Below, in pieces: positions 2,625 to 23,466 of a stretch of DNA of 57,551 bases. Source of the stretch: a virus; the IMG/VR virus record IMGVR_UViG_3300009158_000060, positions 1-57,551 of that record; one strand, 5' to 3'. Under the pieces are notes generated by a model. That model did no database searches. It was not told the origin of the DNA and worked only from the letters and a program-made list of their open reading frames with translations. Made by a program: the position numbers and the translations under genes. Numbering within the stretch: the first letter of the stretch is position 1; each line of letters opens with the position of its first letter.

Positions 2625-2638
2625 CCCAAAGGATAGAC

Positions 2639-5548: not shown

Positions 5549-5735
5549 ACCGGGGGAGGGGTTTTTTGTTCCCGGGTTGGATGTCGTAAAGATAAAGGAA
5601 CTGGGGCTACGCGCCTCAGTTCCTTACAAGTACCGGACTCAATCCTTTATTGGTATCAGAAAGGGGTTGATAGGTGTATGGTTTTATCGGAAACCTGTCT
5701 CACAGTCTCCGCCACGGCGATCTTTATCTTCCTGA
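5517..5735 (+). CDS. Small conserved phage protein, 72 aa, overlapping the late operon end
   Basis: Starts MEIIYPWATL at an ATG preceded by GAGGA (5501-5505). Its pattern, 'PWATLKPGEGFFVPGLD' followed by 'GLRASVP' and a C-terminal 'GIRKGLIGVWFYRKP', matches a type of short protein I recall from many phages and prophages; its function is not known to me. It overlaps the primase-helicase gene by 32 bases. At its 3' end it overlaps the opposite-strand polyvalent protein gene by 80 bases. A - strand terminator hairpin also lies within it. Confidence 0.65.
   Translation: MEIIYPWATLKPGEGFFVPGLDVVKIKELGLRASVPYKYRTQSFIGIRKGLIGVWFYRKPVSQSPPRRSLSS
5586..5625 (-). terminator. Intrinsic terminator of the late operon
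   Basis: Read on the - strand: AAGGAACTG pairs with CAGTTCCTT (9 bp), with four more inner pairs around a 5-base loop, followed by TTATCTTT. It lies 31 bases past the stop codon of the giant polyvalent gene and inside the coding region of the small + strand gene. On the + strand no T-run follows, so it should act mainly on the late transcript. Confidence 0.65.
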
Positions 5736-8700
5736 TACTGTCGAGTTGCGCACGCTTTTCTTCTGGCGACATGTTTGATGCGGCAATCGCCCGTTCAGCT
5801 TGAGTCAACTTATTCATGTTGGCTTTAAACTTGTTGGCCATATCGGCTTGCATGTACTCATTGCCGCGACGTTGCAGTAAACCCATTGCGCCAGACATGT
5901 TGCCTTCTTTCACCATCTGGTCAAACGTGTGCTTAACCTTGAGGTTCTCGTTCATGCGCTCGTACACGTTGTTGATGATGCCGCCAGCGTCATTGGGTTG
6001 GAACGCACCACCAACAATAGGGTAGTCTGACAGCCGCTTAACAGCTTGCTCAGGGGTTTCACTTGCGGGTATGCCCACACTGAGTGCGTGCATGAACGCT
6101 GTACCCATAGTGCCGGTGTAGCCACTGATGAGCTGCTCAAACACAATGGGGGAGATGCCCAGTGCTTTACCAACACTTTTGGCCAACTCTGATGTGTTGG
6201 CGCGGAACTGTTCTTCCGGCAGTAGCTGCTTCTCACGCGCAGACAAAATATCCCTACCTGTGTAGAACGACTTGCCAAGCCCGGCTTCAATAGCGGGTTT
6301 CATTATCTGCGGTATGCCGTATGACGAACCGCCGGGTATTGTCTGAAGCAGAATTTGTTTGAACGCTTGCACAGCTTCTTCGCCGCCATGCTCATTGACC
6401 ATGCTGTTGTACAACGCCTCAGGCAACGCTTTGAAAATGTAACCAACTTCAAACGGAACTGGTATACGTACAGGCTCATCCAAACCCGGAATGCGCACAA
6501 ACCAGTTGCCGTATTTTTGGTCAGGGGTAGCGTTCTTGTACGCGTCGTCGTCCTGCATCAAAGCGGCATAGGCAAGGCTGGCCACGGCCATCATGGCACC
6601 ACGCTGTAACATCTTTTCACGGATACGCAGTTGATCGTTGAAAGGCATTTTGCCCATTGACGCTTTGTACAACACGTTCAGACCTTGAATCTGTGCGTTG
6701 AAGAACGGTATCAGTGCATTGGCTACATGTATTGATGGGGACGCGCCTCGCTTGTTGAAGTTCATTGACTCCAGCGCCAACAGTGTTGCCTCCATCTCAG
6801 ACAAACCTTGGTTAATGTAGCTGTTGTACTGCGCACGGCGTGTCGTAGCATCTGCCTCCATACCCATAGCTTCAAGCTTGCCAAGCGCAGACATCCAGCC
6901 CGGCTTGCCCTCAGACACATCACGCAGAATCTTGGTGAGGTCGGCGGCACCGCCAGTAAACTGCTGCCCACCGGTAATACCACGGCGCTCAAGTGTCTGC
7001 TTGGTTGAGGAGTTCAGTTCTTTCAGCGCACCAATGACCGGCATGAAGTCAGCACCCGAGATGATGGGCGCGGCCACAGAGTCACGGAACAACTGCTTCG
7101 CCATGTACAACGGGCTGATAGTAATTGCTTTACGCAACAACAAAGATGGCATCGCCATGACGCGCAACATTGCGGGCATCTGTGTAGGAATACCCTCCAT
7201 ACCTTTGACCAGTATGTCGGCGGGCACGCCAGTATCAAATTCCTTGTTGCCGATCTTGACCTTCTCGGTAGCCAGCACTGCGTAACGATCTTCCCCGTCA
7301 ACACGGAACTTGACCACGTTGGTGCCAGAAGATATTTTTACAAACTTAGCGGCGTTCAGATCAACAAGTTCATGCACAGCATTCTTGGTTGCCAAATTGC
7401 GCATGCCCATATCCATCAACAAGTTGGTGTTTTGCACAGAGCTTGTCAAAAAGTCAAGGATAGGGTTCTCACCGCCAACTAACTCATGTAGGTATGGTTG
7501 CTCCGCAATGCTGCCTATGCGGATAGGAGACTCACTACCAATCACAAGCTCGGCCACGCCGTTGCGTTCACGATAGAACGGAATGTAATCATTCTCGCTG
7601 AGCAGACGCTTTGCAACATCTTTAGATAGAGCGCCAGTGCTGACAACAAAGTTCACCAAGTTGCGGTTGTACGCGTTGTACTCATCTCGCGCACGTTTGA
7701 ACACATCTTCTAAGCCGGGTGTTGCCTTGATGGCGGCCATAGTGTCGTTCAGCAGTTCCTGTGTCACGCCTTCACCAAAGTTCAGTGAACTCAGACCTTT
7801 GTTACCTGCACGGATAGATGCCATATACATGGTGAATTGCCTGTTGACCGCTTCAGCATTGCCGACCATTGGCTGTGCGTCTTTCAGAATCTGCACCACG
7901 TTGTGGATGTTAGCGCTCTCTTTGCTCTCCAGTACGCGCTCAACGCGTCCGTCGGGACGAGTCTTCTCAGTGATTGCTGGTGCACCGTTAGAGATTGCCT
8001 GTGACACAAAGTTCATGCGCTGGTCGTACATGCGCAAGTAGTACAGCATTTGCGTACCCTTGAGCGGCTCCATGTATTTGGCCAGACGCTCGAAGCCTGC
8101 AAACCTATCAACAAGCTGTGTCTCAAAAGCTAGACCTGTGGCGTTGGCCTTAATCTTTTCAGACCAGCCTTTTTGTTTAGCCACAATCTTGTCAACAAAC
8201 TCACTGTGTTTGGCAATCTCTGGGTTGGTGTATTCCGCTGAACGCGAGAACAGCATCTCGCCTTTTTGCCTTGGTTGTGTTTGACTGACTGGGTTGATGT
8301 CAGTAGCGATGATCTGCGCACCTTCATCTTTGTCGCTGAAATCAACGTAATTGTATGTACCGGGCGCTGCTGTGTATAAGGAAGCGTGTCTTGATACAGC
8401 ATCAAAAAACTTTACACCCGCAACGCCTTCGGCATGCAACATTTCAGACGTAAACATAGGGCACAACTCACTTGGCATACCACTTTGTTCAAGCACAGCA
8501 CTTAAAGCGTTATATAAATCACTCCCGCTTTGCCGATCTGGCCGTACATGGCCTATTGAACGGTTAAATACTGCTTGCTGTCTGCTGTCTAACAAATCAT
8601 AGATACGTTTGAACGCATCTTTAACAACTTCTGTTTGTTTGTCTGCATGTTGATCCCAAAGAATGTATTCGTTTTCAGGCCGCGTGTGTAGTGTACGCAT

Positions 8701-11700
8701 CATGTAACCCGCTGGCTCAGGCACAGGCGGCCCAGATGGCGGGTTGTATTGAAAGTCGTTTACGTCAAGCGCGTCAATAGTGTCTAGAACTTCTTTTGCC
8801 GTGTTGTATGCGTCTTTTGACGCAGGGTTTTCAAAACCTTCAAAGTCTTTTAAATCCTTTTTAGCCTCAACTTTTGTTGCAGCAATAGCTTCTTTCCAAG
8901 TTGGCGGAGTGCCGTTGTTTTCTCTAATAGTATTTTCAAAAACATTTACTGTGTATGCGGCAGCTCTGTTTGTGTTCCACAATTCATGAAACTGTTTGCC
9001 CTTGTAAACCGCATTTACAAAAGGAACTTTTAAATGTTCATCCGCAGTTTCTGCAAACTTTTTAAGTTCTTTAATTTTCTTATCTACTTCTGCAACGGAT
9101 AATTCACGCATCCATTCAACACGCCAACTTGTAGGTTTGGCAATAGGCGTTTTTAACTTAGTGTTCACAACAATAGGTCTGGCAACAGTTCGTGCGGGTG
9201 TTGCAGTTACAGGCCCGTACCCATAGTCTTTAACTGGCAATGCAGATGCGGGTAAAGCTGCTAAAGCATGTTTTGGCCTTTCTTCTTCAATGTTTTCTAT
9301 TTCGCCTTGAACAGCTTCTTTAAAAATTTTATACGGGTTTTCACCGGTTTGCGCGTTATTAACTTCGCGCAAAGGCATGTTTAAAAACTGTTCTGGGATA
9401 CCCGCTGGCAGTTTGCCTGTAAATTCAGGTTCTTGACTTTTAAACCACGCTCTTATGTCTGAACGATCTACCCACTGGTCATACAGGCCACCTGTTTTTG
9501 TAACTGCTTCTACACGGTAATAATCGGCCGTTCCATATCTTTGCCCGCGATATGTTCCCCAACCAAAAGTTTGCATCCCTGAACCAGTACTCATATGTGT
9601 ATGGTCAAACATGTCAAAAGTAACGCCTGTACCGTGCCAAGTTCCTTTGAGTTCAATGTGCGCCGCGCCGTAGGCAAAGTTAACCAAGTCGCCAGCAGTC
9701 AAGTTCTTAGAAGTGATGCCAAACTTTTCAAGCGCTTTTTTAAACGCATCCACCACCATATTCAACCAGTTCTTGACTGCGTTGCCACCTTTAACGCCGA
9801 CAGGCTCAACACCCATCTGCATGGCTTCTTCAACAGCATATGCCAACAACTCATCGTCAATCTGGTGTGGGGGAGTGTTAGCAGCCTCAACCCTGCGCAC
9901 GGCGGCTTTACCAACACGCGCTTCCATTGAGTCTTCAGTTTTGTTTGCCCAGTTCTTAACTGTCTTGACCAACGCGTTGTACTGGCCTTCATTAAAGAAA
10001 TTGCGGAACCCCATGTGCACGCCAACTTCGTGGAGCAGCACGCCAAGTCCGTGACCTTTACCAATGTTGTTGGCAAACAGTACCGCTTTGCCGTTTTGAA
10101 CAAAGCCTTTGGCATTTGTTGGAATCTTGTTGCGCAAATCGTTTCGAGTGACTTCTTTAAACTTGCTCAGGTATTCGTCAAGATTTTCATACACTGCTAA
10201 CTTCTCGGAAACCATTGCCTCAATCTTGCGCCCAGTAACTGGCTCGCCCATACCGGCGGTGAGTTCTGCTTCAAGCTCCGCCTTGGTCAATCCTTTAACT
10301 GGTGTACCACGAGAAAATTCAAAGTCGTCAAACAATCCCATATTGGGATCAACCATTTTGCCTTGCTTACGCTTGCTTGGTTCTTTCAACTGCGGGGCTT
10401 TGGTGCCAAGAATTTGTTTGGCCAAAGCATTGGCATCACGCAATTCAGCGCGATCCATCTCATCCATTTCTGCTGGAGTAAACGCTTTTGCTACGCCTGA
10501 CCCAGTACGGAATGGTTTAGCCGCCGCCAACGCGGCAGTGCTTGGCACAGTAGCTGCCTTGGGTGCTTTAGCTGGCTTGCCTGTAAGGAACACTTCTTTT
10601 TGCGCTTCCAACGAAGCCAGCTTCTGCATAGCGCCCAGCTTGAGCGTTGCCTGTACACGTTTGACGTTGGTTGTCTTGGGGTCGGCCATGATGTCGGCCA
10701 ACTGATTTGTGTCTTCTGGCCCCATGAACGTCTGCACTTCACCACGTGCGTCAAAGATTTCGTCATCAAATATCTGAATCTGTTTGTCTTTGACTCGTTG
10801 AAGTACTGCGGCCTCATCAACTTCTTTTGCCGCCTGCATACCGTTGTCGCGCAAATCATCAAGACGCTTCTGTTCTGGCGTGTTGATGTCTGCAACCTTG
10901 CGGCCTTTTTCAAACACTGCGCCGGGCAAGTCTTTGACGCTGATGCCGTCCTTTTTGAACGCAGCAGTAACCTTGGGCCACCATACCTGCACATTTTTCT
11001 GAAACTCATCCGCACGTTTCTTGGCTTCATCCACAGCAGCTTGCTGTGCTTTTACTTGTGACTCTACGCGTTGTGCAGAGAATGGGTACTTGAGTTTGCC
11101 TAGTTCGCCTGCTCTGCCAGTTTCAACCGCAGTCAAAGGTTCTTTGCGCATGTCTGCCAACTGGCGCTCAAGTAGTTCTAGATACTCACGTTCTGTCTTG
11201 AGGTCTTTGTCCAGCATGGCTTCGGTGACAACAACGTCGTTTTCAATTTCACCAAAGCGGGTTTCTTGCAAGTCGGCCAGTTCTGTTTCAGCGGTCTCAA
11301 TGTTTTCAACAAGCCCTTGAACTTTTTGCAAGTTGTTAATTAAGTTTGGCGCTTGGCCAGTACCCTCAGTCATTTCTTTCTTGGCTGCTTCAATCTGTGA
11401 CTCAACAGTAGCCAGACGTGTCTTGGCCGCTTTCAAAGCACGACGTGCGCGTTCAATTTCAGGATCAAGCAACTCACCCAACGTATCAGACAAACGCTGT
11501 CGGGCTTTGCCCATCGCGGTGGCCATAGCCTTTTGATACGCATTACGCTGGTTCTGAAGTGAAACTTCTGAGTCAAGCATTGCGCGTTGGCCGTCAGTCA
11601 ACATAACTGAGTTACGCAAACTATCTTTGATGAGCTTTAACTTCTCCAGTAGTGGTTCAACAGTTTTACGAGCTGCTTCTGATTGTTTACGCACAGCCGC

Positions 11701-14700
11701 ATTGTTGTCTTGCATCAGTTCAACTAAACGGTTATTTGTGCTTTCAAGACGTTGTCCCAATGAAAGTGCTTGCAAAGCTTGCTTAACGTTCTTTTCGTAC
11801 TCAGGAATCTTGTTTGTGTTGAAGTCTTGGATTAACTTGTTTACTTTTTGTTTTTCTTCCTCAGTAAACACAGACATGTTTTTTTCTTGCTGTTCAGCGG
11901 TCTTACCAATGCCTTGCCTTGATACTTGCAAGTAACGATCCATCAACGCCTTATCTTCTTTGGTAACGCCTGCTTCTGGATATGACGCAAACATTTTTGC
12001 AATGTCTGCATTTGAATACTTGCCAATATTGAAGTCTCCCGGCTTAAGCAGGAAAAACTGCATTTGATTTTTAAGGGCTTCAAGCTGTTCTTCTATTGCT
12101 TCAATTTGCGCAAAACCTTGCTTGTCTCTGGTAGCGCGTGCTTTCTGATTGGCTTCTGTTTTTGCCTTGAGCTTGCGTGCCTGATCCAACGCCTCCCACA
12201 CGGGTTTAATCTCAGGGGACTTGGCAAAGTTGGCCGGTGTGGCACGGATGTAGCCAATGTCTTTGCGTGTTTCAGGGAACAACTGGCCTTGACCTTTTGC
12301 GCCTTCACCAGCAATCTCACCTTCTTGAGCTGTGCTTTCATACAGCTTTATGGCATCTTGAAGCTCACGCAATGAGCTACCCTCGGGTGCCAGCGCGGCT
12401 TCGTAACCTACTGATTTGTATGTACGGCGTTCTCCAAAACGGGTTTCAGCTTCTCTGCCGGGGACATTCTCTACAACGCGTTTGCCGGGGACAGCTTCAC
12501 GGCGGGTGTAAGTTTGCTTGCCGAGGTCTTCACCGCGCAGGATGCGTGCGGCTTGGTTCTGAGCTGCGTCCAACAAAGGCTTGCTGGCTTTGCCGTCTTC
12601 AATGATTTCCTTGACGCGTTCCAGTGCTTCTCGAATACCTTGAGTGCGGATCGGGCCGTCTTCAGTTTCTGTGACCGCGCCTTCTGGGATGTTCCGTGTC
12701 AGCGCCTTGTCAATCATGTTGCCCACGTATTCACGCAGGCGGCGCATCTCTCCACCCGCCGTCTTGGCAGTTTCACCCCGGGCTTCAGCAACCTTCTGAG
12801 CTTCCGTAGTAGCAAACTGCTGTTTTAGCAGCGGTGTTTCACGTGAAACCTGTGATGGCATCTGAGACAGGCTGTCAACAACCTTGGCAATCTGCGCTTT
12901 GAAATGCTTTACTTCTTTGTCACTCAGGCGTGCAATGTCGTTCAACGGCGTGGTAGCCAGATCACGGGTCTTCAAAACACGTTTGGTAACAGCGCCACGC
13001 ACAATCTTGTTGGCTCGCATCTGTGCAGGCTGCACAATTACTTCTTCAAGCTCTGGTTTTTTAGGCACAGCCTGTGCGCGGCTCAACCATTCACCCACCA
13101 CATCATGAATGCGCGACGCGGCTTTGATTGCCTCATCATAGGTTAGTGCGGGTTTACCCGCAACACGGCGGTGGATGGCAGCTTCTTCCAACACCGCAGA
13201 AATGTATTTGCCACGGGCTTCTTCAGCTTGTTGAGCCAACACCGCAGGAGAGGCCGCAGACGCGCCTTGGCCGTACGGCAGTAGTTCTTCTCTGTATTCA
13301 CCTGTTTTTTTATCCAGTATACGTTGACGTTCTTTACCCAACGCATCACCGCGACGCAGACGATCAATCTTGTCTTCAATCGTGTTTAAAGCGGTGTCTT
13401 GCTCGTTGCGTGTGCGCAGTACTTCTTGGGCGTAAACGCTGGCTTGTGGGCTTGTTGCGGCGCTTGGGAACTTGCCTTTTGTCAGGTCGCCAGCAGGTGT
13501 TGGTTCTGCAAAAGCGTTGAGTTGCTCAAGTGCCTGATTACCTCTTTCAAACGCAGCAGTTGCCGCATCGCGGTTGTTTGAGCGCAGTGCGGCATCTCTG
13601 TCCGTATTAGCTTGGTCTATTTCATCAAGCAGTGTGTTTATTTTGCTACGCACACGTTCAGCTTGCTTAGGTTGCGCAAACGGTTTCAACTCAGGGTTTA
13701 CAGCAATTACTGGGGGTTTACCCTCACTTATTTTCTCCAGCTTTGGCTCGACCATGTATTTGAAAAACATGTCATCGCCAACGTCATTGCGCGTATCTTT
13801 GAGGTCGTCCATGTACGAGGTGAACGCCTGCACATGTGGGGATTCTTTTTCTGCGGGTTTAGCGGCACCAAAAGCTGCTTTGCGTGTTTCCATCTCCTGC
13901 TTAAAGCCCGGAGCAATTTGCAACTTCAACGCATCTAAAACCGCAGAGTTACGCACACCGGTAGGCAACCCGGGTAATTGCATACGTTTACTGACAATCT
14001 GATCCGCCAGCATTGGGTTACGCATCAAGTATGAAACGTAGTCGGACACAGCCTCGTTGGGGGCTTTTTCACCGGAAAGTTGTTGGTCATTGGCCAACTG
14101 AATACTCTGGGCAGCATGCTGCGCTGCAATATCCTCTGCCTTCGGCGGCTCAGGCGGCTTGGCAATCTGTTGTTCGTACAGCTCAGGCTCAGCGGGTTTT
14201 TTTGCCGTTTCCTCAGGCTCCATGCCAAACGCATATTCTTGCGGGGTTAACTTGGCAACACGTGCCTGTTCTGCTGCTTGTTTCAGAATAGGTTTGACAC
14301 GCACATACTCATCAGCCAGTGGTTTAAGTTCTTTGTTTATGGCATCAATCTGGCGGTTAACTTCTCGATTGTTTGCGTAATCCGTTTCTGGAGACACGCC
14401 TTTCTTTATTGGAATTAACTGTTGTTTGAGCGCCGTACGCTGGGCTTCCAAGTCCTGCGTCTTCTGGAACACTTCTTGGGCGTACGCTGGGCTGTTGAGG
14501 CGAATCTTCTCTTCTTCCTGCCGCTTTTCTTCATCGGCGCGAAGTTTCTTGAACTCCTCTTGATCTGCGCCACGTTGTTTGCCGCGCTCTTCCCCGCGTT
14601 CAAAATACCTACCAGCAGGGGCCAATGTGCCGCCAAGAACAGCGCCCCCAATAAAGTTATCAAAATACTCACTTCGAGCTTTTTCGTCGGTAATAGACAG

Positions 14701-15504
14701 GCCCGCTTGTAAACGTTCAAACACCTGTTGGCCCGCTTCGGTCAGACCTTCGGTGCCCATTGCCTTACCTGTAGCAAGTGCGTAATCTTTGGCAATTTGC
14801 GCAGTAGATTGCTTAGTAGCCTCCAACAACACTTTCTCTGGAACTTCTTTACCAGCAGCCGAGAAAATTCCACGAATACCGGGGAGCATCTTTAAGCTCA
14901 GTACATCCAACGCAGCCTGAGGAATAGATGCCGCAAACGCAGAGCCAAGAGAAGTCTCACCCAGTTTCTTGCCCTCGTCCATCTGACGGGACAAGTTTGA
15001 ACCAGTGAACTGCGCAGCGGAGGTCAGGCCGGTAGCACCAATACCTGCGGCTTCTCCGGCAGTAAGTAACCCACCAAGCACAGGCGCAGCAGCCGCAGCT
15101 TCTGGTAATGCCAAAGCAGCCAGACCAGCGGCCACAGGCGCGGCCATGTACGGCAAAGACCCGCCCAACAGTTCAGTGGTTTTGGTTAAGGGGGCTTGGA
15201 GCCATCCTTCTTGGGTAGGCGCAAATGTGCGCTTCTTATATTCTTCTTGTTCTTGGATGTACTTCTCAGCCGCAGCTTCATCCATCAATCCGGTCTTACC
15301 GGCCAGCGCAGCAACGTCGCCTTTTAATGAAGCAATCCCTGCTTTGGCGGCAGGAATAAATCCAGACTCAGGTTTAGCTTGTGGTTCTGGGCGCTTAAAG
15401 GCTTCAGGGTACATCTGCTGCGCTCGGGCGTATGCCTGTTCCGGGGTCTCCCCGTCTCTAATTAATACTTGAGTACCGTCTGGTAATGGAACAGCTTGAG
15501 GCAT
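5656..15504 (-). CDS. Giant polyvalent internal/ejection protein with protease-like, ADP-ribosyltransferase-like and LPD38-like regions
   Basis: 3,282 residues, last gene of the late operon. Order: an N-terminal 'LPDGTQVLIRDGETPEQAY' segment; alanine-rich hydrophobic stretches (about 110-170) that could enter a membrane; long charged coiled-coil regions (about 310-450 and 1250-1570); a metalloprotease-like 'LLHEVGVHMGF' (H1825, E1826, H1830); an ADP-ribosyltransferase-PolyVal-like domain opening with 'WHGTGVTFDMFD' (H1957) and 'FGWGTY' (Y1985) and closing with 'GVAGVKFFD' near 2358; then an LPD38-like C-terminal region (about 2465 to the end). Such giant proteins beside short-tail genes are usually packed in the virion and ejected with the DNA. 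The catalytic claims are from motif reading only. Base composition falls in the ADP-ribosyltransferase part. Start ATG 15504 is 76 bases after the upstream gene. Confidence 0.85.
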   Translation of the reverse strand: MPQAVPLPDGTQVLIRDGETPEQAYARAQQMYPEAFKRPEPQAKPESGFIPAAKAGIASLKGDVAALAGKTGLMDEAAAEKYIQEQEEYKKRTFAPTQEGWLQAPLTKTTELLGGSLPYMAAPVAAGLAALALPEAAAAAPVLGGLLTAGEAAGIGATGLTSAAQFTGSNLSRQMDEGKKLGETSLGSAFAASIPQAALDVLSLKMLPGIRGIFSAAGKEVPEKVLLEATKQSTAQIAKDYALATGKAMGTEGLTEAGQQVFERLQAGLSITDEKARSEYFDNFIGGAVLGGTLAPAGRYFERGEERGKQRGADQEEFKKLRADEEKRQEEEKIRLNSPAYAQEVFQKTQDLEAQRTALKQQLIPIKKGVSPETDYANNREVNRQIDAINKELKPLADEYVRVKPILKQAAEQARVAKLTPQEYAFGMEPEETAKKPAEPELYEQQIAKPPEPPKAEDIAAQHAAQSIQLANDQQLSGEKAPNEAVSDYVSYLMRNPMLADQIVSKRMQLPGLPTGVRNSAVLDALKLQIAPGFKQEMETRKAAFGAAKPAEKESPHVQAFTSYMDDLKDTRNDVGDDMFFKYMVEPKLEKISEGKPPVIAVNPELKPFAQPKQAERVRSKINTLLDEIDQANTDRDAALRSNNRDAATAAFERGNQALEQLNAFAEPTPAGDLTKGKFPSAATSPQASVYAQEVLRTRNEQDTALNTIEDKIDRLRRGDALGKERQRILDKKTGEYREELLPYGQGASAASPAVLAQQAEEARGKYISAVLEEAAIHRRVAGKPALTYDEAIKAASRIHDVVGEWLSRAQAVPKKPELEEVIVQPAQMRANKIVRGAVTKRVLKTRDLATTPLNDIARLSDKEVKHFKAQIAKVVDSLSQMPSQVSRETPLLKQQFATTEAQKVAEARGETAKTAGGEMRRLREYVGNMIDKALTRNIPEGAVTETEDGPIRTQGIREALERVKEIIEDGKASKPLLDAAQNQAARILRGEDLGKQTYTRREAVPGKRVVENVPGREAETRFGERRTYKSVGYEAALAPEGSSLRELQDAIKLYESTAQEGEIAGEGAKGQGQLFPETRKDIGYIRATPANFAKSPEIKPVWEALDQARKLKAKTEANQKARATRDKQGFAQIEAIEEQLEALKNQMQFFLLKPGDFNIGKYSNADIAKMFASYPEAGVTKEDKALMDRYLQVSRQGIGKTAEQQEKNMSVFTEEEKQKVNKLIQDFNTNKIPEYEKNVKQALQALSLGQRLESTNNRLVELMQDNNAAVRKQSEAARKTVEPLLEKLKLIKDSLRNSVMLTDGQRAMLDSEVSLQNQRNAYQKAMATAMGKARQRLSDTLGELLDPEIERARRALKAAKTRLATVESQIEAAKKEMTEGTGQAPNLINNLQKVQGLVENIETAETELADLQETRFGEIENDVVVTEAMLDKDLKTEREYLELLERQLADMRKEPLTAVETGRAGELGKLKYPFSAQRVESQVKAQQAAVDEAKKRADEFQKNVQVWWPKVTAAFKKDGISVKDLPGAVFEKGRKVADINTPEQKRLDDLRDNGMQAAKEVDEAAVLQRVKDKQIQIFDDEIFDARGEVQTFMGPEDTNQLADIMADPKTTNVKRVQATLKLGAMQKLASLEAQKEVFLTGKPAKAPKAATVPSTAALAAAKPFRTGSGVAKAFTPAEMDEMDRAELRDANALAKQILGTKAPQLKEPSKRKQGKMVDPNMGLFDDFEFSRGTPVKGLTKAELEAELTAGMGEPVTGRKIEAMVSEKLAVYENLDEYLSKFKEVTRNDLRNKIPTNAKGFVQNGKAVLFANNIGKGHGLGVLLHEVGVHMGFRNFFNEGQYNALVKTVKNWANKTEDSMEARVGKAAVRRVEAANTPPHQIDDELLAYAVEEAMQMGVEPVGVKGGNAVKNWLNMVVDAFKKALEKFGITSKNLTAGDLVNFAYGAAHIELKGTWHGTGVTFDMFDHTHMSTGSGMQTFGWGTYRGQRYGTADYYRVEAVTKTGGLYDQWVDRSDIRAWFKSQEPEFTGKLPAGIPEQFLNMPLREVNNAQTGENPYKIFKEAVQGEIENIEEERPKHALAALPASALPVKDYGYGPVTATPARTVARPIVVNTKLKTPIAKPTSWRVEWMRELSVAEVDKKIKELKKFAETADEHLKVPFVNAVYKGKQFHELWNTNRAAAYTVNVFENTIRENNGTPPTWKEAIAATKVEAKKDLKDFEGFENPASKDAYNTAKEVLDTIDALDVNDFQYNPPSGPPVPEPAGYMMRTLHTRPENEYILWDQHADKQTEVVKDAFKRIYDLLDSRQQAVFNRSIGHVRPDRQSGSDLYNALSAVLEQSGMPSELCPMFTSEMLHAEGVAGVKFFDAVSRHASLYTAAPGTYNYVDFSDKDEGAQIIATDINPVSQTQPRQKGEMLFSRSAEYTNPEIAKHSEFVDKIVAKQKGWSEKIKANATGLAFETQLVDRFAGFERLAKYMEPLKGTQMLYYLRMYDQRMNFVSQAISNGAPAITEKTRPDGRVERVLESKESANIHNVVQILKDAQPMVGNAEAVNRQFTMYMASIRAGNKGLSSLNFGEGVTQELLNDTMAAIKATPGLEDVFKRARDEYNAYNRNLVNFVVSTGALSKDVAKRLLSENDYIPFYRERNGVAELVIGSESPIRIGSIAEQPYLHELVGGENPILDFLTSSVQNTNLLMDMGMRNLATKNAVHELVDLNAAKFVKISSGTNVVKFRVDGEDRYAVLATEKVKIGNKEFDTGVPADILVKGMEGIPTQMPAMLRVMAMPSLLLRKAITISPLYMAKQLFRDSVAAPIISGADFMPVIGALKELNSSTKQTLERRGITGGQQFTGGAADLTKILRDVSEGKPGWMSALGKLEAMGMEADATTRRAQYNSYINQGLSEMEATLLALESMNFNKRGASPSIHVANALIPFFNAQIQGLNVLYKASMGKMPFNDQLRIREKMLQRGAMMAVASLAYAALMQDDDAYKNATPDQKYGNWFVRIPGLDEPVRIPVPFEVGYIFKALPEALYNSMVNEHGGEEAVQAFKQILLQTIPGGSSYGIPQIMKPAIEAGLGKSFYTGRDILSAREKQLLPEEQFRANTSELAKSVGKALGISPIVFEQLISGYTGTMGTAFMHALSVGIPASETPEQAVKRLSDYPIVGGAFQPNDAGGIINNVYERMNENLKVKHTFDQMVKEGNMSGAMGLLQRRGNEYMQADMANKFKANMNKLTQAERAIAASNMSPEEKRAQLDSIRKIKIAVAETVRQVSDKTIHLSTPF

Positions 15505-15580: not shown

Positions 15581-17182
15581 TTACGGACGAGCGTTGGGGG
15601 CTGCTGGTACGGCAGTTACTGTGGGCGACACACCCATTATCCGAAGATAGTCGTCGATGTTTGGGTACTTGGCTTGCAAGTAAGGGTCTGTTGCCCACTT
15701 GTCTCGGTGAACAGCATCCGCACGCATACCGGTTGCAGCCGTCTGTGACTCCATGTGTTTCTTGAACAGCTCGGGGTTGCGGTAAATGCGCTCCAAACCA
15801 GTAGGTGCGTTTGCTTGAACTTGTGTACGTTGCAATGCTGCGGCATCCGCTTGAGCTTGTTTGGCAAAATCTGTTTTTGCTGTGAACATTGTGCGCTCAT
15901 TCTGCGCATTCTCTTTGAGCTTAGTTTCAAAGATGCCTTTGGCAGTGTCCGTATCAACTTGGAATATCTTGGCAATACCCTCAATGGTGCGGTTCTTGGC
16001 GGTGCCAAGTGCATCAATACCTTTGGCTTGCAACTCAGTGTGCGCTTTAAGGTCACCACGTTTTTCAGCATTTCGGGCAGCTTCAATATCCCCAAAGGCT
16101 TTATCACGTTCGCGCTGGGCTTTCTTTAAGTCTTTCAACGCCGACTGGTAGTTATCCAGTCCAGCCAACGCGCCCTTGCCAATGTTTTCAAACGCGTATT
16201 GAGAAGTGCCAGACATCATGCCCAAACCTGCTTGAAAGATAGACATGCCCAAAGCTTTGTCTTTGTCGGTGGCGGCTTCGGCTTCTTCTTTTTTCAAACG
16301 CTCTTCATAGCCTTTATAGGCCTCAGGCATTTCAGAAACTTTTTTGTCGTAGTCACCAAGCAACTTGTCGTAGGCTTTGGTTGTGAAAGATTCGTTTGCT
16401 TCTAACTTGCCGCGCAACTCAGTTGAATCACTTAAAGCCGCTGCTTCAGCTTTTGCTTGTGCAGGAGTTTTTGCAGTGGTATCCAGCGCAGTTATTCCAG
16501 CCATTGGGTCAACAGGCTTTACCGGTTTAACTATTGGTGCTCCTGCGCTGGGAGGTGGCACTGCGCCCGCACCGGGAGGTGGAACTGCTCCTGCACCGGG
16601 AGGTAAAGTACCCGCGCCAGTCTGTGCCGCAGGCATTCCCGGAGGAGTAAAGGTTGTGCCAGCGGGGAGTGTGTTGGATGCATTCTCTTTAACGCTTTTT
16701 AAATACGCATCCGTGGCACTAAGCGGCATCGGGTTGTTTTTGTCGTACTGTTTTGCTTCGCGGTACGTTCTACGAACGCCAGACTCAGGAGGAAAAGCTT
16801 TAAGCCATTCAGGAAGGTCTTCTTCCCCTGTGCTGCCGCCGGGGCCAAACGCAACGATACCGCCTTCAGCCATACCCTGCATGTTCTGGGCTGGAAGTTG
16901 GCCAATGCCTTGATCTTCTGGAAGCATCTGTTGCTGCGGAGGAGCCATCCCTTGCTGTGGGGGAGGAGCCACCATCTGGGCAATCTGCTGGTCAGCCACT
17001 TTGGGCTGCGGCTGCATTCCCGCTTGGCCCTCTTGTCCGGCCTTCATCTGTTTCTTCTGGTTTGCAATAGACAGCGCCAGCGTCACAATGTAAGGATCAT
17101 TCTTGTGCAGTGCAGCATACTGCTGCAACTGCGGCAACTGCATGCGGGACATCGTATCGGTGAGGGTTTTTACGTTAAGCAT
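15581..17182 (-). CDS. Internal virion / ejection protein, 533 aa
   Basis: The N-terminal third is helical then Q- and P-rich, with an 'AEGGIVAFGPGG' peptide (about residues 106-117) that recurs in internal proteins of related phages. A proline-alanine-glycine linker with repeated 'GAGAVPPP' units (about 195-220) follows, then a long helical, coiled-coil-like region rich in K, E and A (about 245-460). No enzyme motif is visible. Its place between the 329-aa protein and the giant polyvalent protein fits the set of internal proteins that short-tailed phages eject before or with DNA. That role is inferred from position and composition. Confidence 0.65.
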   Translation of the reverse strand: MLNVKTLTDTMSRMQLPQLQQYAALHKNDPYIVTLALSIANQKKQMKAGQEGQAGMQPQPKVADQQIAQMVAPPPQQGMAPPQQQMLPEDQGIGQLPAQNMQGMAEGGIVAFGPGGSTGEEDLPEWLKAFPPESGVRRTYREAKQYDKNNPMPLSATDAYLKSVKENASNTLPAGTTFTPPGMPAAQTGAGTLPPGAGAVPPPGAGAVPPPSAGAPIVKPVKPVDPMAGITALDTTAKTPAQAKAEAAALSDSTELRGKLEANESFTTKAYDKLLGDYDKKVSEMPEAYKGYEERLKKEEAEAATDKDKALGMSIFQAGLGMMSGTSQYAFENIGKGALAGLDNYQSALKDLKKAQRERDKAFGDIEAARNAEKRGDLKAHTELQAKGIDALGTAKNRTIEGIAKIFQVDTDTAKGIFETKLKENAQNERTMFTAKTDFAKQAQADAAALQRTQVQANAPTGLERIYRNPELFKKHMESQTAATGMRADAVHRDKWATDPYLQAKYPNIDDYLRIMGVSPTVTAVPAAPNARP

Positions 17183-17191
17183 GAGTGTTCC

Positions 17192-18181
17192 TTACTGCAT
17201 TTTCATCAGTGCCAGCTCAGCCAAACCTGCTGGGCGTTTCTTTTCTTTGACCGCGCCGCCTTTAGCTTTTCCCACAGTTGAACTGCCCATCTGAGACAGG
17301 CCGTAGGCTGCGGTGCCAAGACCGGCCAGTTGAGACCCCACGCTTGGCGCAGCTTGATAAACACTTGTGCTGGTGTTTTGCATGGGCATACCCCGTGTCA
17401 AGGCGCTCATGTTGGCCAACTGCATCATCGGGTACTGCTGTGCAGTAGCGTAATCTTGAATCTGTTGGTTTATCTTTGACTGCTCAAGCCCTTGTTGCTG
17501 TGCACCAAGTTGGTTTTGCAAACCAATTAAACCTGTTTGTTGGCCAAAGCCAGTGTTGTACTGTTGTTGAGCTTGGTTGAATGCGTTTTGCATTCCCGTT
17601 GCCATGATGTTGGACTGGGTGTCGCCAAGAGCGCGTTCGCGTTCCGCACGCATGATCGCGTCGCGCCCACCACCAAAAGCGCCTGCTTGCGCGGCTTGGG
17701 CTTGCTGTTGTTGCCCTTGAATAGCAGATTGTCTTGCGGCTGCTTGCATTTGGGGTTGAAGCGCATACTCTGCGTACGGTGACATGTACGCGCCAACATC
17801 TTGCTGAAACCCTTGTGGCCCAGCCTGCATGTTTTGCGCCTGCTGTTGCGCCTGCTGTTGCATGGGAGAGAACCCAGCAAAATATGCGTTAGGGTCTGTG
17901 TTGAAAGGCTTGTACGCTTTTAAACTTGTCGGGCTTTCCGTAATTGGCGTGGTTCCGGTTTGTTTTCCCCGGCTGTTGTATATCGGGTCGCCGCCTGTTT
18001 TACCGTAGTTAAACAACTCTTTTTGCGCAGAGCCAAGCATCTGCTCAACGTACGGCTGCGCATACTCAGGAATGTTTGAAGTTTGGGAGTACGTAGTATT
18101 TGGCCCACCACCTCCGCCACCACCACCCCCAAAACAAAATGTGGGAATGAAAAAATTAATAATGCTGCGCAGCTTAAACAT
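17192..18181 (-). CDS. Internal virion / ejection protein with glycine tract, 329 aa
   Basis: Begins with a short hydrophobic, basic stretch ('MFKLRSIINFFIPTF') followed by a run of nine glycines. It is then very rich in Q and A (for example 'QQQAQQQAQNMQAGPQGF') with a conserved-looking 'IPEYAQPYVEQMLGSAQ' near residue 37. The C-terminus is basic. Such Q/A-rich helical proteins with an N-terminal membrane-like segment are common among ejection proteins of short-tailed phages. The start at 18181 has AAGGAG upstream on its strand and overlaps the previous gene by 8 bases. No enzymatic feature was found. Confidence 0.65.
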   Translation of the reverse strand: MFKLRSIINFFIPTFCFGGGGGGGGGPNTTYSQTSNIPEYAQPYVEQMLGSAQKELFNYGKTGGDPIYNSRGKQTGTTPITESPTSLKAYKPFNTDPNAYFAGFSPMQQQAQQQAQNMQAGPQGFQQDVGAYMSPYAEYALQPQMQAAARQSAIQGQQQQAQAAQAGAFGGGRDAIMRAERERALGDTQSNIMATGMQNAFNQAQQQYNTGFGQQTGLIGLQNQLGAQQQGLEQSKINQQIQDYATAQQYPMMQLANMSALTRGMPMQNTSTSVYQAAPSVGSQLAGLGTAAYGLSQMGSSTVGKAKGGAVKEKKRPAGLAELALMKMQ

Positions 18182-18626
18182 CTAAATGCTCCTTGCGGTA
18201 ATCGTCAAACCGCTCAAAAAAAATTGTTTTCCACATCTCAGGCAAACACTCTTTGGCTTTTTCTGGGCCAACACAGACATGGACGGCATAAGCCATGATG
18301 TTGCCAGCAGCGTACCGAAGACCGTGCGCAATTTCAAGCCCATGCGCATCTTTGTTTGTTTCAAAAAAGTTTGCCGTTTCGTACGCTGATACTACCGTGA
18401 GCCACATAGGTAGTATCTCATTCTGAATACTGCGGTAAAACGGGTTGGCAGGCAAGTACACAAGGCAAGTCAAAAACGCTTGGTTAATTTGATTTGCAGA
18501 TACAGGACTATCTTTGTCTACTAGATCGTCCCAAATATGTGCCAAGTCAGCAAAGGCGTGGAACATCCGCAAAGCATCTTCATTGCCTCCGAACCATTCC
18601 AACTTGCCTTCTTTTTGGTTGTTCAT
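18174..18626 (-). CDS. Hypothetical all-helical protein with a DDxxD-like motif
   Basis: 150 residues, apparently all helical. 'HAFADLAHIWDDLVDKD' (about residues 23-39) contains DDLVD (D33, D34, D37), which looks like the metal-binding DDxxD motif of isoprenoid synthases, although the protein is much shorter than those enzymes. A second helical segment 'AHGLRYAAGNIMAYAVHVCVG' is moderately hydrophobic. It overlaps the upstream gene by ATGA and the downstream one by 8 bases, so it is part of the internal-protein block. I do not recognise the family, and the motif may be coincidental. Confidence 0.6.
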   Translation of the reverse strand: MNNQKEGKLEWFGGNEDALRMFHAFADLAHIWDDLVDKDSPVSANQINQAFLTCLVYLPANPFYRSIQNEILPMWLTVVSAYETANFFETNKDAHGLEIAHGLRYAAGNIMAYAVHVCVGPEKAKECLPEMWKTIFFERFDDYRKEHLDV

Positions 18627-20251
18627 GCCAAGTACTTTTCAGGGTTGATCTGCTTGCCTTGTTTCTTGTTGCCAGTACGCGCCTGACGAACTCTATCCAT
18701 CATCTTGTACAGCACCTTGGCACCAGCTTCTGAGGAGCCATTACCGAGGTGGGACACGACATCGGCAGGTACTACAAACTCTTCGTTGGCCAAGCGTGCT
18801 GGCTGCTTGTTGGCGATTGTCGCAGGAATGTCGTCAGACATGCCATCTCCCGGCCCTTTGAGCATGCGCCCACCACGAGCATAGTCGGAGTAACCACCCA
18901 GATCAGCCAGACCGCCGTGTGCGTAGTTGGGTCTATACGGTGTTGGCTGCACGGGTTGGTATCCTGTGTAGTTGCTGCCATTCCATGTGGACTTGTACTT
19001 TTCTTTTTCGTATGGTTTGGGGCGATTCAGCATCTCGTATGCACTAGAAGCCAGCATGCCTGTCATCAACTTGTTTGGCAACGACATTTTTGTAAAATCT
19101 TGCCAAGCACTTTGAAGTCCACCAACTTCTGGGGCAAGGGCACCTGAACCAATTGTTTGTGGGTAAATTGTTTCACCTGAAACAGCTTTTACCGGTTCCA
19201 TTCCTCTGTACGCTTCTTTCATTGCATCAGCGTATTCCGGCGTTGTTTCAAACGGCTGCAACGTATTTGCGCCAAAGTTTGAAACATTGCCAGCAACTTG
19301 GGCGGGTGTACTACCGACAGGGGAAAACGGTGTTTTGGCTACCGCTTCCTGATAAACCCCCGGATTCATTCCTTCGCCTGTCAACGCCCCCCGTACTTGC
19401 ATTTGGGTGAACTGATCTGCGCCAACCGGATTAACCGCTTGAGTTACCGATGGTGGGGGTAGGTTGGAACCCAGTGGGCCGCTTAAATTTGTTTGCAACC
19501 CTTGTAGTCCCGATTGCGCATATGTGGGATTAGCCATTGGTGCCGCAGGATTAAAAGTTGTCGGTAGGGTAGACGTAGGCGCACCAGCGCCATACTGTGT
19601 CAGCGTAGATGCGGGGGTATTAAACGCGCTTGTTGCGCCAACTTCGTTTGCCAATGCTTGAATACCGCTTAGATTTTCAAAACCGGCAGTATCAAACCCC
19701 CCCGAAGTACGCAAGGGTGTAGATGTCGCTTGAACTGGGTTTGAAGGGTTAACTGGAGTAGTTGCCGCAGATTCAACAAGCGGTTCAGCAGGGGGAGCGC
19801 CCGTATAGCCATAGTTGGAAGGCGGCATAGCCGGTGGAGCAGGAGGCGGAGCAGTAGGAGCAACAGGAGGTGCCGCAGGAGGCCCAGCAACAGGAGGTGC
19901 CGCAGGCGGTGGAGCTTCAAACGGATTGACCACCTCTCCAAAGTTGCTCATTGAGCCGGGGCCGGTGTATGTATTGACCGCCAAATCCGCAAGCCCTCCA
20001 CCACTGGGAGAAACGGGGTTCAAATTTACTGCGTCAAGCACAGATTGGTTTGTAGCCGTTTGTGCGGCTTGCCCAGCAGCCTGTGTAGCGGCTTGTTCGG
20101 CGGCAGCTTGTGCGGCGGCTTGTTCGACTGCGGCTGCGGTAGCGGCTTCGGCTGCGGCTGCGGCAGCAGCTTCGGCTGCTGCAATCTCTGCGGCAGTCAT
20201 TGTGCCTGCAACGGCTCCTTCTGCTACTAATGGTATTGCTGCTTCTGGCAT
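18623..20251 (-). CDS. Virion-associated protein with alanine-rich start and conserved C-terminal module
   Basis: 542 residues. Residues 10-70 are almost all A, E, Q and T and form a low-complexity helix. The middle is P/A-rich, disordered-looking linker. The last 80 residues hold a compact module, 'GPGDGMSDDIPATI' then 'NEEFVVPADVVSHLGNGS' then 'GAKVLYKMMDRVRQA', which I know as a recurring C-terminal unit of structural proteins in phages of this type. It probably anchors the protein in the virion. It lies directly upstream of the other internal proteins. No catalytic residues stand out. Confidence 0.65.
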   Translation of the reverse strand: MPEAAIPLVAEGAVAGTMTAAEIAAAEAAAAAAAEAATAAAVEQAAAQAAAEQAATQAAGQAAQTATNQSVLDAVNLNPVSPSGGGLADLAVNTYTGPGSMSNFGEVVNPFEAPPPAAPPVAGPPAAPPVAPTAPPPAPPAMPPSNYGYTGAPPAEPLVESAATTPVNPSNPVQATSTPLRTSGGFDTAGFENLSGIQALANEVGATSAFNTPASTLTQYGAGAPTSTLPTTFNPAAPMANPTYAQSGLQGLQTNLSGPLGSNLPPPSVTQAVNPVGADQFTQMQVRGALTGEGMNPGVYQEAVAKTPFSPVGSTPAQVAGNVSNFGANTLQPFETTPEYADAMKEAYRGMEPVKAVSGETIYPQTIGSGALAPEVGGLQSAWQDFTKMSLPNKLMTGMLASSAYEMLNRPKPYEKEKYKSTWNGSNYTGYQPVQPTPYRPNYAHGGLADLGGYSDYARGGRMLKGPGDGMSDDIPATIANKQPARLANEEFVVPADVVSHLGNGSSEAGAKVLYKMMDRVRQARTGNKKQGKQINPEKYLA

Positions 20252-20252
20252 A

Positions 20253-20564
20253 TCAAACTCCTCGTTTCATCACAACAAGCCCTTGCTTGCGACTAAGTTC
20301 TTTGAAGCCAAACATGGCTATCAGTTTCTGTGCTTTGACATCGTTCTCAAAGGGTGTAGCATACACTTCCTTGTAACTTTTGTCTCTCAAAAATGGCAGG
20401 ATTTGCTCTGCAAAGATGCCTTTGTACCGCTTGAATTTGGCCGGTGACCACGCTCCGGGGTTGAAGTTCAGATGCAGGGTCACCTTTGTTCGGTTGAGTA
20501 TGTAGTCGCACAGGACTCGCGCATCTGCATCTTCGTATATCTTTTCTCTTACTGGCGGCATCAT
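20253..20564 (-). CDS. Small GNAT-like acyltransferase-fold protein
   Basis: 103 residues. The C-terminal part, 'YKEVYATPFENDVKAQKLIAMFGFKELSRKQGLVVMKR', has the spacing of the last strands of GNAT proteins (an N.A..L....GF segment followed by a strand). The usual acetyl-CoA loop (Q/R-x-x-G-x-G/A) is not seen in this short version, so enzymatic activity is doubtful. It starts with an ATGA overlap on the preceding 103-aa gene and sits between tail and internal-protein genes, where related phages often carry small GNAT-like proteins. Confidence 0.5.
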   Translation of the reverse strand: MMPPVREKIYEDADARVLCDYILNRTKVTLHLNFNPGAWSPAKFKRYKGIFAEQILPFLRDKSYKEVYATPFENDVKAQKLIAMFGFKELSRKQGLVVMKRGV

Positions 20565-20872
20565 GTTTTAATCTTCAACACGTTAGATGCTGTTGTGTCG
20601 TAGTAAATATCGCCAACCCGCAAATTGGCTGTATCAGCTTGCGTTGGCAAGCTAAGTATAAACGTATTCGGCACTGTTGGGCTGGGCCGGACAAAGCTTA
20701 AAGCAGCAACAATATCTGCTCCGTTAATTTCTGTAGCCGCCGCAATCGGGCCAACGTTGTCTAGTTGGTTGAAATATAGCCGCAAGCTTGCAAGCAGCTT
20801 GTCCATATACTGGCGGTCGTACTCATCCGGCGGTAACGGTAGGTTGGGTGCGCGAACATTTTTTGCTGACAT
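20561..20872 (-). CDS. Small tail-associated hypothetical protein
   Basis: 103 residues beginning 'MSAKNVRAPNLPLPPDEYDRQYMDKL', with a helical segment 'DKLLASLRLYFNQLDN' and a beta-rich second half ending 'LRVGDIYYDTTASNVLKIK'. The opening 'APNLPLPPxxY' plus one amphipathic helix is a familiar pattern in short-tailed environmental phages, always near tail genes. Function unknown; it may join fibres or cap the tail. It is separated from the large tail gene by two bases and overlaps the GNAT-like gene by ATGA. Confidence 0.6.
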   Translation of the reverse strand: MSAKNVRAPNLPLPPDEYDRQYMDKLLASLRLYFNQLDNVGPIAAATEINGADIVAALSFVRPSPTVPNTFILSLPTQADTANLRVGDIYYDTTASNVLKIKT

Positions 20873-20874
20873 AT

Positions 20875-23466
20875 TTATCTCCTGCCGTCAGGTCGGATGT
20901 CGATACGAGGCGCACCAAGCTGCCATGTCGTACCAATCTGATTAGATGAAATCTTCAAAGACATCTGGCGACCGCGCACTCGCGTGTAAACCTGTCCAGT
21001 GAACTGATCTACGGTGTATGTACCGATGCGGTCTACGTTGGCGTAGCTGACCCCGCCAACCGATTGGTTGGCTGACTCCACCGGGTCGTTGTACCCAGAA
21101 CCCGAATTCTGAAGCGGCAGTAAGTACATGGTGACCTGCGGAGTCAGTCCTGTAGTAGACGACCCCCGGAAGGTAAGGTCAGGCACGATGCGCCAGACAA
21201 ACCCAAAATTGTGTCCGTCTCCAATGTCATACTGCGATGAGGTGATGTACGCCTCTATGGCTTGAGTTGTGTCGGTGGTATTGTCGTCAATTCCATACTC
21301 ATGGAACACCAAGTTGTAGCTGTACGTTGCCGCCAGCGGGTAATTGGTCAAGCCAGAATCCAGCCAAGCTGTGCGGCCCATTGAGCCGTAGTACCAGACA
21401 TCTTCAGCATAGTTATACACAACGTAGCGGTCGATGACCGTAGAGCCTGATGTGCAGTAAAACCACCAGACTTCGTTAAAACCTTCATTCGTACCAGCAA
21501 AGAACTGAGATTGCTGGTCAAGGTTAATGTCGCCGTAGATAAATTGACGCAGGTCGCAACGGAGGGTGGCAACCCGACCATCGTACTTATAGAACTTGTC
21601 TACACCCATCCAGTACACCACACCAGATGCAATGATGGCTGTGTTATATCCGGCTATGGATGTGTTGTCGCCCAGAAGTTGTGTGCCCCACACATAGGGT
21701 GGGCCAAGGTACTGCATAGAGTAGATAGATGTGTCAGTGAACACAACAATCTCTTGCCGCGCCTGCACTGCTGTCAAGATTTGAGAGCCGTGTGATAGAC
21801 GCACAAACCCCGCCTGATTGGTTACCGCAGGAGTCCAGTTGACTACAGACTCTTGGTCAGACCAGCGGATCAGCATAGGGTCTAAGTCGCCGCCACCGTA
21901 AGGCGTGCAGCCAAATGCAATCGTGAACCGGCTGGTATCTGACACCATCATGTAGTTCACATAAGCAGGGACATTAGATGCCCCTGAAAGCTCGGTTACC
22001 GCAATGCCGTGAGGATAAATTGTGTGCGTGCCGGTCTGTGTTCCGGTCAGAACAATCAAGTCACCGCCTGATGTGGCTGAGATATTGAATGTACTACCAG
22101 AGAAGTTGTTGACGTAGTACGTTGTGCCAAGCGTCATGCCTGTGGGTAAAGTGCCTGTGCTGACAATTTGGATAGCCGTATTGTTGTTCAGCGTACCAAG
22201 CGCAGTGAACGTGGCGGGGGTAAAAATTGAGATCGTGCCTGTGCCTGCGCCTGTTATGTTGATTGCAGCACCGCCCACAGTCGTGGCAAGCTGCGCCGTA
22301 GCTGCTACGGGGTTCACAATGTAGTACACCGTATTTGCAGTCAGACCGCCCGGAACCGTACCGGTAGATGTGAGCTTGACGGGCGTGCCGGTAGCAATTG
22401 CTGTTGAGAACGTGATGTACTCGGTAATCGTATTGACTGCGGATACTGTTTGTGAGTTCAGCGTGATTGTGACGCCAAGCCCAGTTGTCCCAATATAGCC
22501 TGTCCAATAATACAGGGGGCCACCACGGTAACCAAAAACTAAGTCCTGACCAAAGTTGTTTTGATACCAAAGACGAGCCGCAGCAGTACCAGACTGCCCT
22601 GTGCCCCATGATCCTGAACCCCATGAGCCAGCGCCCCACCCAGTAATTGGCTGCGCATCGTCTGCGCCCACATGGATTTCATAATTGGCGTTGACTGTGC
22701 CACCAGCACCTGTGTCATAAGTTCCCGCCACAACAGGCGTGGTGATGGTGAATGAATCAGCATCAATGACAGTGACGGCAAAGCTGCTGTTCAGTACATC
22801 GGCTGTTAAGTTAGTGTTTACATACAGAGAGAATGTGCCTGTACCTGCTGTAGTTGTACTGACTGCCGCACCGCTTGGTACGTTGGCAAACTGGATTGTT
22901 GTGCCGGACACCACTTGTATATAGTACTGATACCCCGTAATCAACCCGGTTGGCAATGCGCCTCCCGCAGATACTGTGAGAATTACCGGCGTGTTGGCAG
23001 CAAGCGCAATGGACAGTACAAAGTTGGTGGCGGTCGAGCGTGTAAACGTCTGCGTACTGAGAGCTACCGCGCCCATGAAGTTGACGTAATCTCCTGTGGT
23101 TGCGCCATGCGCAACATTTGTCACAGTCACTACGGCAGAGCCAGCAGTAGCGGCAAACGGGCCGCTCAAGCCGTTTGCATAAGAGCGGATAGGCGTGATG
23201 TCGTTGTACTGACCGCCCTGCTCAATATAAAACTTCAGGTATGTACCAACCCCAACATAAACAATACCGCCCAGCGATGCCCATGACCACAATGATCGGC
23301 AAGTGCCTACGTATGTGTATGCAGAAATCCTGTCCCAGCCACCGATCTTCTCAGGCGTACCTTGGCGAAAGCGAATCTTGTCGCAGTCATACCAGCCACC
23401 TTCGTTGGTGTATCGGGTGTTCTCTTTGTTTACACCGGGCTTGAGCTGTATCTTCTGTAATGGCAT
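20875..23466 (-). CDS. Tail protein, P22 gp10-like stabilisation/hub type
   Basis: 863 residues. The N-terminus ('GVNKENTRYTNEGGWYDCDKIRFRQGTPEKIGGW') and the C-terminal half ('RFTIAFGCTPYGG', 'WSDQESVVNWTP', 'IVVFTDTSIYSMQYLG', 'VWYYGSMGRTAWLDSG') show repeated Trp/Tyr-rich strands like a beta-propeller, as in P22 gp10-type packaged-DNA stabilisation proteins. Between them lie at least three units of the pattern LPTGL...YY (near residues 169, 369 and 439), small beta modules inserted in the core and making the protein longer than gp10. It probably plugs or extends the portal channel. The assignment is by pattern, and a tail-fibre hub is the main alternative. Confidence 0.6.
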   Translation of the reverse strand: MPLQKIQLKPGVNKENTRYTNEGGWYDCDKIRFRQGTPEKIGGWDRISAYTYVGTCRSLWSWASLGGIVYVGVGTYLKFYIEQGGQYNDITPIRSYANGLSGPFAATAGSAVVTVTNVAHGATTGDYVNFMGAVALSTQTFTRSTATNFVLSIALAANTPVILTVSAGGALPTGLITGYQYYIQVVSGTTIQFANVPSGAAVSTTTAGTGTFSLYVNTNLTADVLNSSFAVTVIDADSFTITTPVVAGTYDTGAGGTVNANYEIHVGADDAQPITGWGAGSWGSGSWGTGQSGTAAARLWYQNNFGQDLVFGYRGGPLYYWTGYIGTTGLGVTITLNSQTVSAVNTITEYITFSTAIATGTPVKLTSTGTVPGGLTANTVYYIVNPVAATAQLATTVGGAAINITGAGTGTISIFTPATFTALGTLNNNTAIQIVSTGTLPTGMTLGTTYYVNNFSGSTFNISATSGGDLIVLTGTQTGTHTIYPHGIAVTELSGASNVPAYVNYMMVSDTSRFTIAFGCTPYGGGDLDPMLIRWSDQESVVNWTPAVTNQAGFVRLSHGSQILTAVQARQEIVVFTDTSIYSMQYLGPPYVWGTQLLGDNTSIAGYNTAIIASGVVYWMGVDKFYKYDGRVATLRCDLRQFIYGDINLDQQSQFFAGTNEGFNEVWWFYCTSGSTVIDRYVVYNYAEDVWYYGSMGRTAWLDSGLTNYPLAATYSYNLVFHEYGIDDNTTDTTQAIEAYITSSQYDIGDGHNFGFVWRIVPDLTFRGSSTTGLTPQVTMYLLPLQNSGSGYNDPVESANQSVGGVSYANVDRIGTYTVDQFTGQVYTRVRGRQMSLKISSNQIGTTWQLGAPRIDIRPDGRR

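Follow-up and report, generated by a model that had tools for sequence, protein, structure and literature searches.

A 3,282-residue phage protein with a predicted metallopeptidase, an ADP-ribosyltransferase-like domain and an LPD38 end: a probable polyvalent virion protein

Here we describe P0001, a 3,282-residue protein of an uncultivated virus, which is probably a DarB-like phage polyvalent virion protein that would be packaged, ejected and cut by a peptidase, and whose ADP-ribosyltransferase (ART) would act on the host. P0001 combines at least two unlike predicted domains (a metallopeptidase motif, an ART-like domain and LPD38) with a late virion-gene location, which are two of the traits that define polyvalent proteins. 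By analogy with characterized systems, it is probably carried in the particle and injected with the DNA of a lake-type bacterial virus, and it may fairly be inferred to act right after ejection on host proteins or defences. The proposed course of events has four steps: (i) P0001 would be made late, at the same time as the structural proteins, and incorporated into the head, (ii) it would enter the cell during DNA ejection, (iii) the zincin-like peptidase would cut the long chain, before or after delivery, freeing its working parts, and (iv) soon after infection begins, the freed ART would ADP-ribosylate at least one host macromolecule. A previous sequence-only reading had arrived at a similar layout; its polyvalent arrangement of metallopeptidase, ART and LPD38 is upheld by a Pfam LPD38 match, motif conservation and synteny with a virion-proven homologue, while the ART scores below the family cut-off. 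Neither the exchange of the enzyme part as a cassette nor the constant zincin motif ahead of LPD38 had been noticed in that reading.

The domain types, the injection of polyvalent proteins and their processing by metallopeptidases (MPTases) were already published in 2017 (Iyer et al., PMC5512222). What is new here is P0001 itself, an ART clade that scores below threshold and bears a helical insert, the exchange of cassettes, and a rule for the peptidase slot.

Gene context and the LPD38-containing end

The window analysed is the whole 57,551-base IMG/VR virus record. The P0001 gene occupies 5656..15504 on the minus strand, as do all P0001 features given below, and consists of 3,282 codons with an ATG start and a sole stop at its end; similarity to relatives begins at M1. 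Both the 9.8-kb, 3,282-residue gene and its placement at the end of an internal-protein block, as claimed from the sequence alone, were confirmed; the gene closes the late structural block. Read from right to left, the late operon encodes the terminase large subunit (42122-43660), portal (39629-42115), major capsid protein (36019-36948) and a structural block, with P0001 last. The late genes ahead of it (15581..23466, minus strand) encode proteins of 533, 329, 150, 542, 103, 103 and 863 amino acids (aa), the last being a virion structural protein with a phrog_3287 match (20875-23466, minus strand) that is separated from P0001 by the six others. Two further minus-strand genes, one inside the structural block (32730-33659) and one near its end (25379-26020), encode proteins with partial matches to tail-fibre families, and a 969-aa DUF927/primase-helicase-like protein (phrog_25314, phrog_8841; 2639-5548, plus strand) is encoded convergently with P0001. 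Relatives of P0001 are encoded at 75 IMG/VR loci; a DNA-level comparison of window positions 1-25000 with GenBank phages returned no close relative, and two contig scans of bacterial genomes found no relatives of P0001.

The chain begins with an N-terminal part (residues 1-350; 14455..15504) that has one hydrophobic stretch (residues 124-142) and is kept in some relatives (58% in L020, L042 and L073) and replaced in others. It is followed by a charged, Ala/Glu/Lys-rich region that varies among relatives (residues 351-1790; 10135..14454), then by the MPTase (1791-1950), the ART-like domain (1951-2415) and a conserved C-module (about 2416-3282); the segments 1780-1860, 1940-2410 and 2460-3282 delimited earlier agree well with these last three parts.

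The C-module (5656..8259, ~865 residues) is common to all relatives containing that end, with 53-100% identity among them, and is homologous to large late proteins from cultured phages. Within it, LPD38 (PF18857; residues 2986-3164; 6013..6549) was matched by Pfam over the full profile (1-189) with 108.6 bits against a cut-off of 27 (E 5.4e-31), in agreement with the LPD38-like end claimed previously; Pfam gave no other convincing match to P0001. Foldseek, suggested earlier as a check, bore fruit for one part of the protein: the C-module model matched mainly predicted viral proteins annotated as "large polyvalent protein associated domain" (best E 2.4e-37), where it is important to note that, with a modest model (pLDDT 63) and poor superpositions (rmsd over 20), only the E-values, which are helped by sequence, are usable. 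No PDB structure matched the C-module model, and none matched the MPTase and ART region.

The evidence for virion carriage comes from homologues. CsCl-purified virions of phage JC1 yielded 51 unique peptides of gp69 (4,515 aa), a distant homologue, a number surpassed only by that for the capsid protein (PMC9144972). Like this and other DarB-like proteins of Bcep22-like phages (PMC9144972), P0001 is huge and closes the morphogenesis block, and gp69 stands last in the same gene order. LPD38 (4195-4401 in gp69) lies about 115 residues before the end of both proteins, with a zincin motif upstream, and P0001 residues 2913-3186 align to gp69 with E 5e-6. The two differ in that gp69 carries methylase/helicase, LPD3 and lytic transglycosylase parts in place of the ART cassette, and only the C-terminal part can be aligned (20% identity over about 310 alignment columns). 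An annotated DNA ejection gene precedes the homologue in phage VvAW1. In P1, DarB belongs to the head, and its first 30 residues are enough to get a reporter packaged (PMC9024508). The function of LPD38 was left open in the portion of PMC5512222 consulted; the best reading of the C-module with LPD38 is that it forms the virion/ejection end of P0001.

A peptidase slot ahead of the C-module

The predicted zincin-like metallopeptidase (residues 1791-1950; 9655..10134) is of class A, with a zincin motif of the HEXXXH rather than the HEXXH form. The motif, HEVGVH (residues 1825-1830; 10015..10032), is followed by a conserved Glu 1885 in a later helix, and H1825, E1826, H1830 and E1885 together supply the zincin pattern of polyvalent-protein peptidases. 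The metalloprotease-like HE motif noticed earlier is present, and it is invariant in all 22 aligned homologues; the first His, the Glu and the later Glu are furthermore invariant across 15 peptidases from six motif classes. A motif of the HE..H/HE...H type occurs by chance in 0.00135 of random 120-residue windows of P0001 composition. Pfam peptidase families did not match the P0001 MPTase. In an AlphaFold2 (AF2) model the predicted order of helices and strands fits a zincin, with no structural match to this weak model (pLDDT 67).

Of the relatives, gathered through patterns spread over the protein, 63 (53 distinct junctions) extend far enough upstream to be judged, and in every one of them a zincin motif precedes the LPD38 module; since these relatives are not independent, no combined probability is claimed for the recurrence. 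The motif is mostly found 110-160 residues before the module, and farther away where an ART or another part has been inserted. What occupies the slot is variable: HEVGxHxG (19), HExxHAAxE (18), HExxGH[FY]GL (11), HExxGHYGVD (8), HELxHAAT (8) and HELFHKG (1), two of the 63 proteins being counted with two motifs. Profile comparison by hhalign nonetheless connects several classes (D-E 98%, B-F 98%, A-F 94%, A-B 74%). Among distant cultured phages (20-28% module identity), 8 of 10 have the upstream motif, namely PTXU04, phiARM81mr, Vibrio 1.232.O, Pag-Yong1, VvAW1, X14, CF418P1 (at -397) and JC1 (residue 3465); Bacillus phage Palmer and Pelagibacter phage HTVC010P are without it, and their proteins are short. 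Escherichia phages PTXU04 and Pondi are cultivated relatives; in PTXU04 the homologue has 2,197 aa, and its motif, HEIIVH, stands immediately ahead of the LPD38-type module.

Individual loci show variations on this arrangement. In CF418P1 (L182, residues 1432-1829) the motif is 397 residues before the LPD38-type module, and another part may sit at the position of the P0001 ART. In L074 (ORF residues 1460-2296) it is 836 residues ahead, with a large insert at the same place. The large ORFs upstream of the C-module in L037 and L068 contain two zincin classes (HEVGAH and HELTHAAT) whose order is opposite between the two phages, and the class A peptidase is followed by a stretch, MSRRAFLRGAVAAVGGM, similar to a twin-arginine signal.

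The predicted metallopeptidase probably processes the P0001 chain. In an unlikely alternative, the chain stays whole and the peptidase serves as the effector by cutting host proteins, with the ART as its helper. Iyer et al. allow for such a role, and the N4 vRNAP, which includes an MPTase, is packaged uncut (PMC5512222); moreover, peptidase classes are swapped, as effectors are. Retention of a zincin motif of whatever class, both in every relative with sufficient upstream sequence and in most of the distant cultured phages, is however a better fit to a housekeeping cut. That the peptidase always precedes the module while its class is free thus favours, without proving, processing over an optional effector. 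We propose, as an idea slightly less likely than not to hold, that the LPD38 module and the one zincin peptidase just ahead of it act in these phages as a general unit for delivery and release. In such a unit the position of the peptidase would be obligatory and its class free, and recombination near residues 1665 and 2418 would either load effector cassettes (here the ART) between the two or replace them along with the peptidase. If this is true, LPD38 would be the conserved carrier or ejection end. The portion of PMC5512222 consulted mentions no fixed order of MPTase and LPD38.

The ART-like domain and its exchange

The HYD-type ART-like domain (residues 1951-2415; 8260..9654) contains a helical insert (2031-2245; 8770..9414). 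H1957 and Y1985-X10-Y1996 are invariant in all 47 ART homologues, H1957 being assigned to strand 1 and Y1985 to strand 2 from the published description and the motif rather than from a good model. In the last strand, position 2388 is Asp or Glu in 45 of 47 (D 33, E 12) and D2391 is Asp in 35 of 47; D2388 and D2391 are thus candidates for the third catalytic residue of the predicted ART. The invariant H, Y and Y, together with an Asp/Glu in the last strand, fit the H-Y-D layout that published ARTs from polyvalent proteins display (PMC5512222). For the ART-PolyVal-like domain claimed by the sequence-only reading, this conservation is favourable and the profile scores fall short: the P0001 ART reaches 14.2 bits against Pfam ART-PolyVal (PF18760), whose cut-off is 31.2 bits. 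PF18760 is weakly matched by 20 of the 47 homologues (best E 1.8e-6), and none of the family members tested passed the cut-off, the closest being L157 (29.2-30.2 bits). Profile searches of P0001 hence recovered LPD38 outright and the ART only beneath its threshold. Pseudomonas phage F116, a clear PF18760 member (133 bits), was reached from L157 by tblastn (E 5e-3). This link and the sub-cut-off scores suggest that the P0001 ART belongs to a sister clade of PF18760 rather than to its curated membership. The clade shares with PF18760 (e.g. F116 p60) the H-G-[TS] and Y-X10-Y motifs and an FVVF/NYVxF-type last strand; unlike PF18760, it scores below the cut-off, contains a helical insert of 200 residues and is longer in its C-terminal half (TRPENEYILWD...GxKFFDxxSR...NYVDF). 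A second ART form, with a last-strand Glu and no long insert, occupies the same place in L020, L032, L091, L092 and others.

A structural route to the ART and MPTase was abandoned: in the AF2 model of residues 1700-2425 (pLDDT 67) the start of the ART core is under 50, no Foldseek hit had an E below 0.6, and VIA-align gave only middling matches to helical proteins. A sequence search of the PDB with an MPTase and ART profile likewise returned nothing.

Comparison of relatives reveals where the chain is exchanged. P0001 and L017 are mostly 74-100% identical over residues 351-1650 (54-60% in a few 50-residue blocks) and 74-96% identical from about 2450 to the end, and are unrelated between about 1665 and 2415; there L017 carries a different peptidase class (HEVAGHFGL) and lacks an ART. 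Against L005 and L006 the pattern is reversed, with dS of 0.04-0.13 in the ART region and 0.08-0.18 in the MPTase versus 0.86-0.98 in the C-module, and 2.4 in the N-terminus of L005; identity falls straight after GEMLFSR/AEYTN, at about 2418-2426. The low dS of MPTase and ART relative to the C-module indicates that this block moved recently between phages as a unit. Its geometry is tightly kept, the ART lying between a class A MPTase and the C-module with a one-residue MPTase-ART gap in 53 of 54 distinct proteins and 2-23 residues to the module in 50 of 51, although, because ART loci were found partly via MPTase patterns, ARTs without a class A MPTase would have been missed. Compared with the set described in PMC5512222, what differs here is that the MPTase and ART are traced as one exchangeable cassette in a fixed place.

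F-S-R tripeptides occur only twice in P0001, at either end of the MPTase and ART block: before the MPTase (residues 1730-1732; 10309..10317) and at the ART/C-module junction, close to the exchange breakpoints (residues 2419-2421; 8242..8250). They could be cut sites or mere linker. F-S-R on both sides was seen in class A only, a weak lead, and S-R-G ahead of the MPTase is invariant in 22 homologues. The broader idea that every cassette is bracketed by matched short motifs acting as cleavage sites was rejected, given that similarity between the N- and C-side was no better than in random windows and did not track peptidase class.

The domains of P0001 are under purifying selection with no sign of decay: dN/dS is 0.03-0.13 in the C-module, 0.07-0.17 in the MPTase, 0.11-0.33 in the ART core and 0.06-0.47 in the ART insert. 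The insert changes fastest against more distant relatives (0.32-0.47), which may mark it as a surface following a changing partner. These values bear on the view, which we consider improbable, that P0001 is mainly a structural or ejection (inner core) protein whose enzyme-like parts are decayed and serve as filler or spacer. Such a protein would be in keeping with a gene that closes the structural block, with long helical regions, with models of low confidence and with a sub-threshold ART score, but dN/dS of 0.07-0.33 in the MPTase and ART core, H, Y and Y of active-site type retained in every ART and the HE motif in every MPTase, and the clean gain or loss of the ART with the rest unchanged, speak against it. 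Least probable of the readings weighed is that the ART is directed against a competing phage, or against the virion or DNA of its own phage, for superinfection exclusion or packaging control; superinfection is mentioned as an option in PMC5512222 and the swapping of cargo among related phages would also fit phage-phage conflict, but the place of the gene among the late genes points rather to delivery into the next host.

Implications for polyvalent proteins

Like the phage-type polyvalent proteins of Iyer et al. (2017; PMC5512222), P0001 is a large late protein of a tailed phage that unites several dissimilar domains, and its components (an HEXXXH MPTase, representing one set of polyvalent-protein peptidases, a HYD-type ART and LPD38) are all described there. 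It also shares with phage T4 Alt the idea of a head-carried, injected ART, and differs in that Alt is a separate protein of the R-S-E ART clade without peptidase or LPD38 (in part after PMC5512222). P0001 is consequently a good example, though not one without precedent, of a multi-tool protein that is probably injected.

The proposal of polyvalent proteins came from domain architectures, and their packaging, cutting and use are still poorly understood. The P0001 family offers a natural experiment, in which one conserved carrier bears many swapped payloads, with or without an ART, in closely related phages. Since cultivated phages, among them those of E. coli, Vibrio and Shewanella, also possess this carrier end, release of the payload by the adjacent peptidase is testable in laboratory strains, and the P0001 ART is a candidate modifier of the host in the first minutes of infection.
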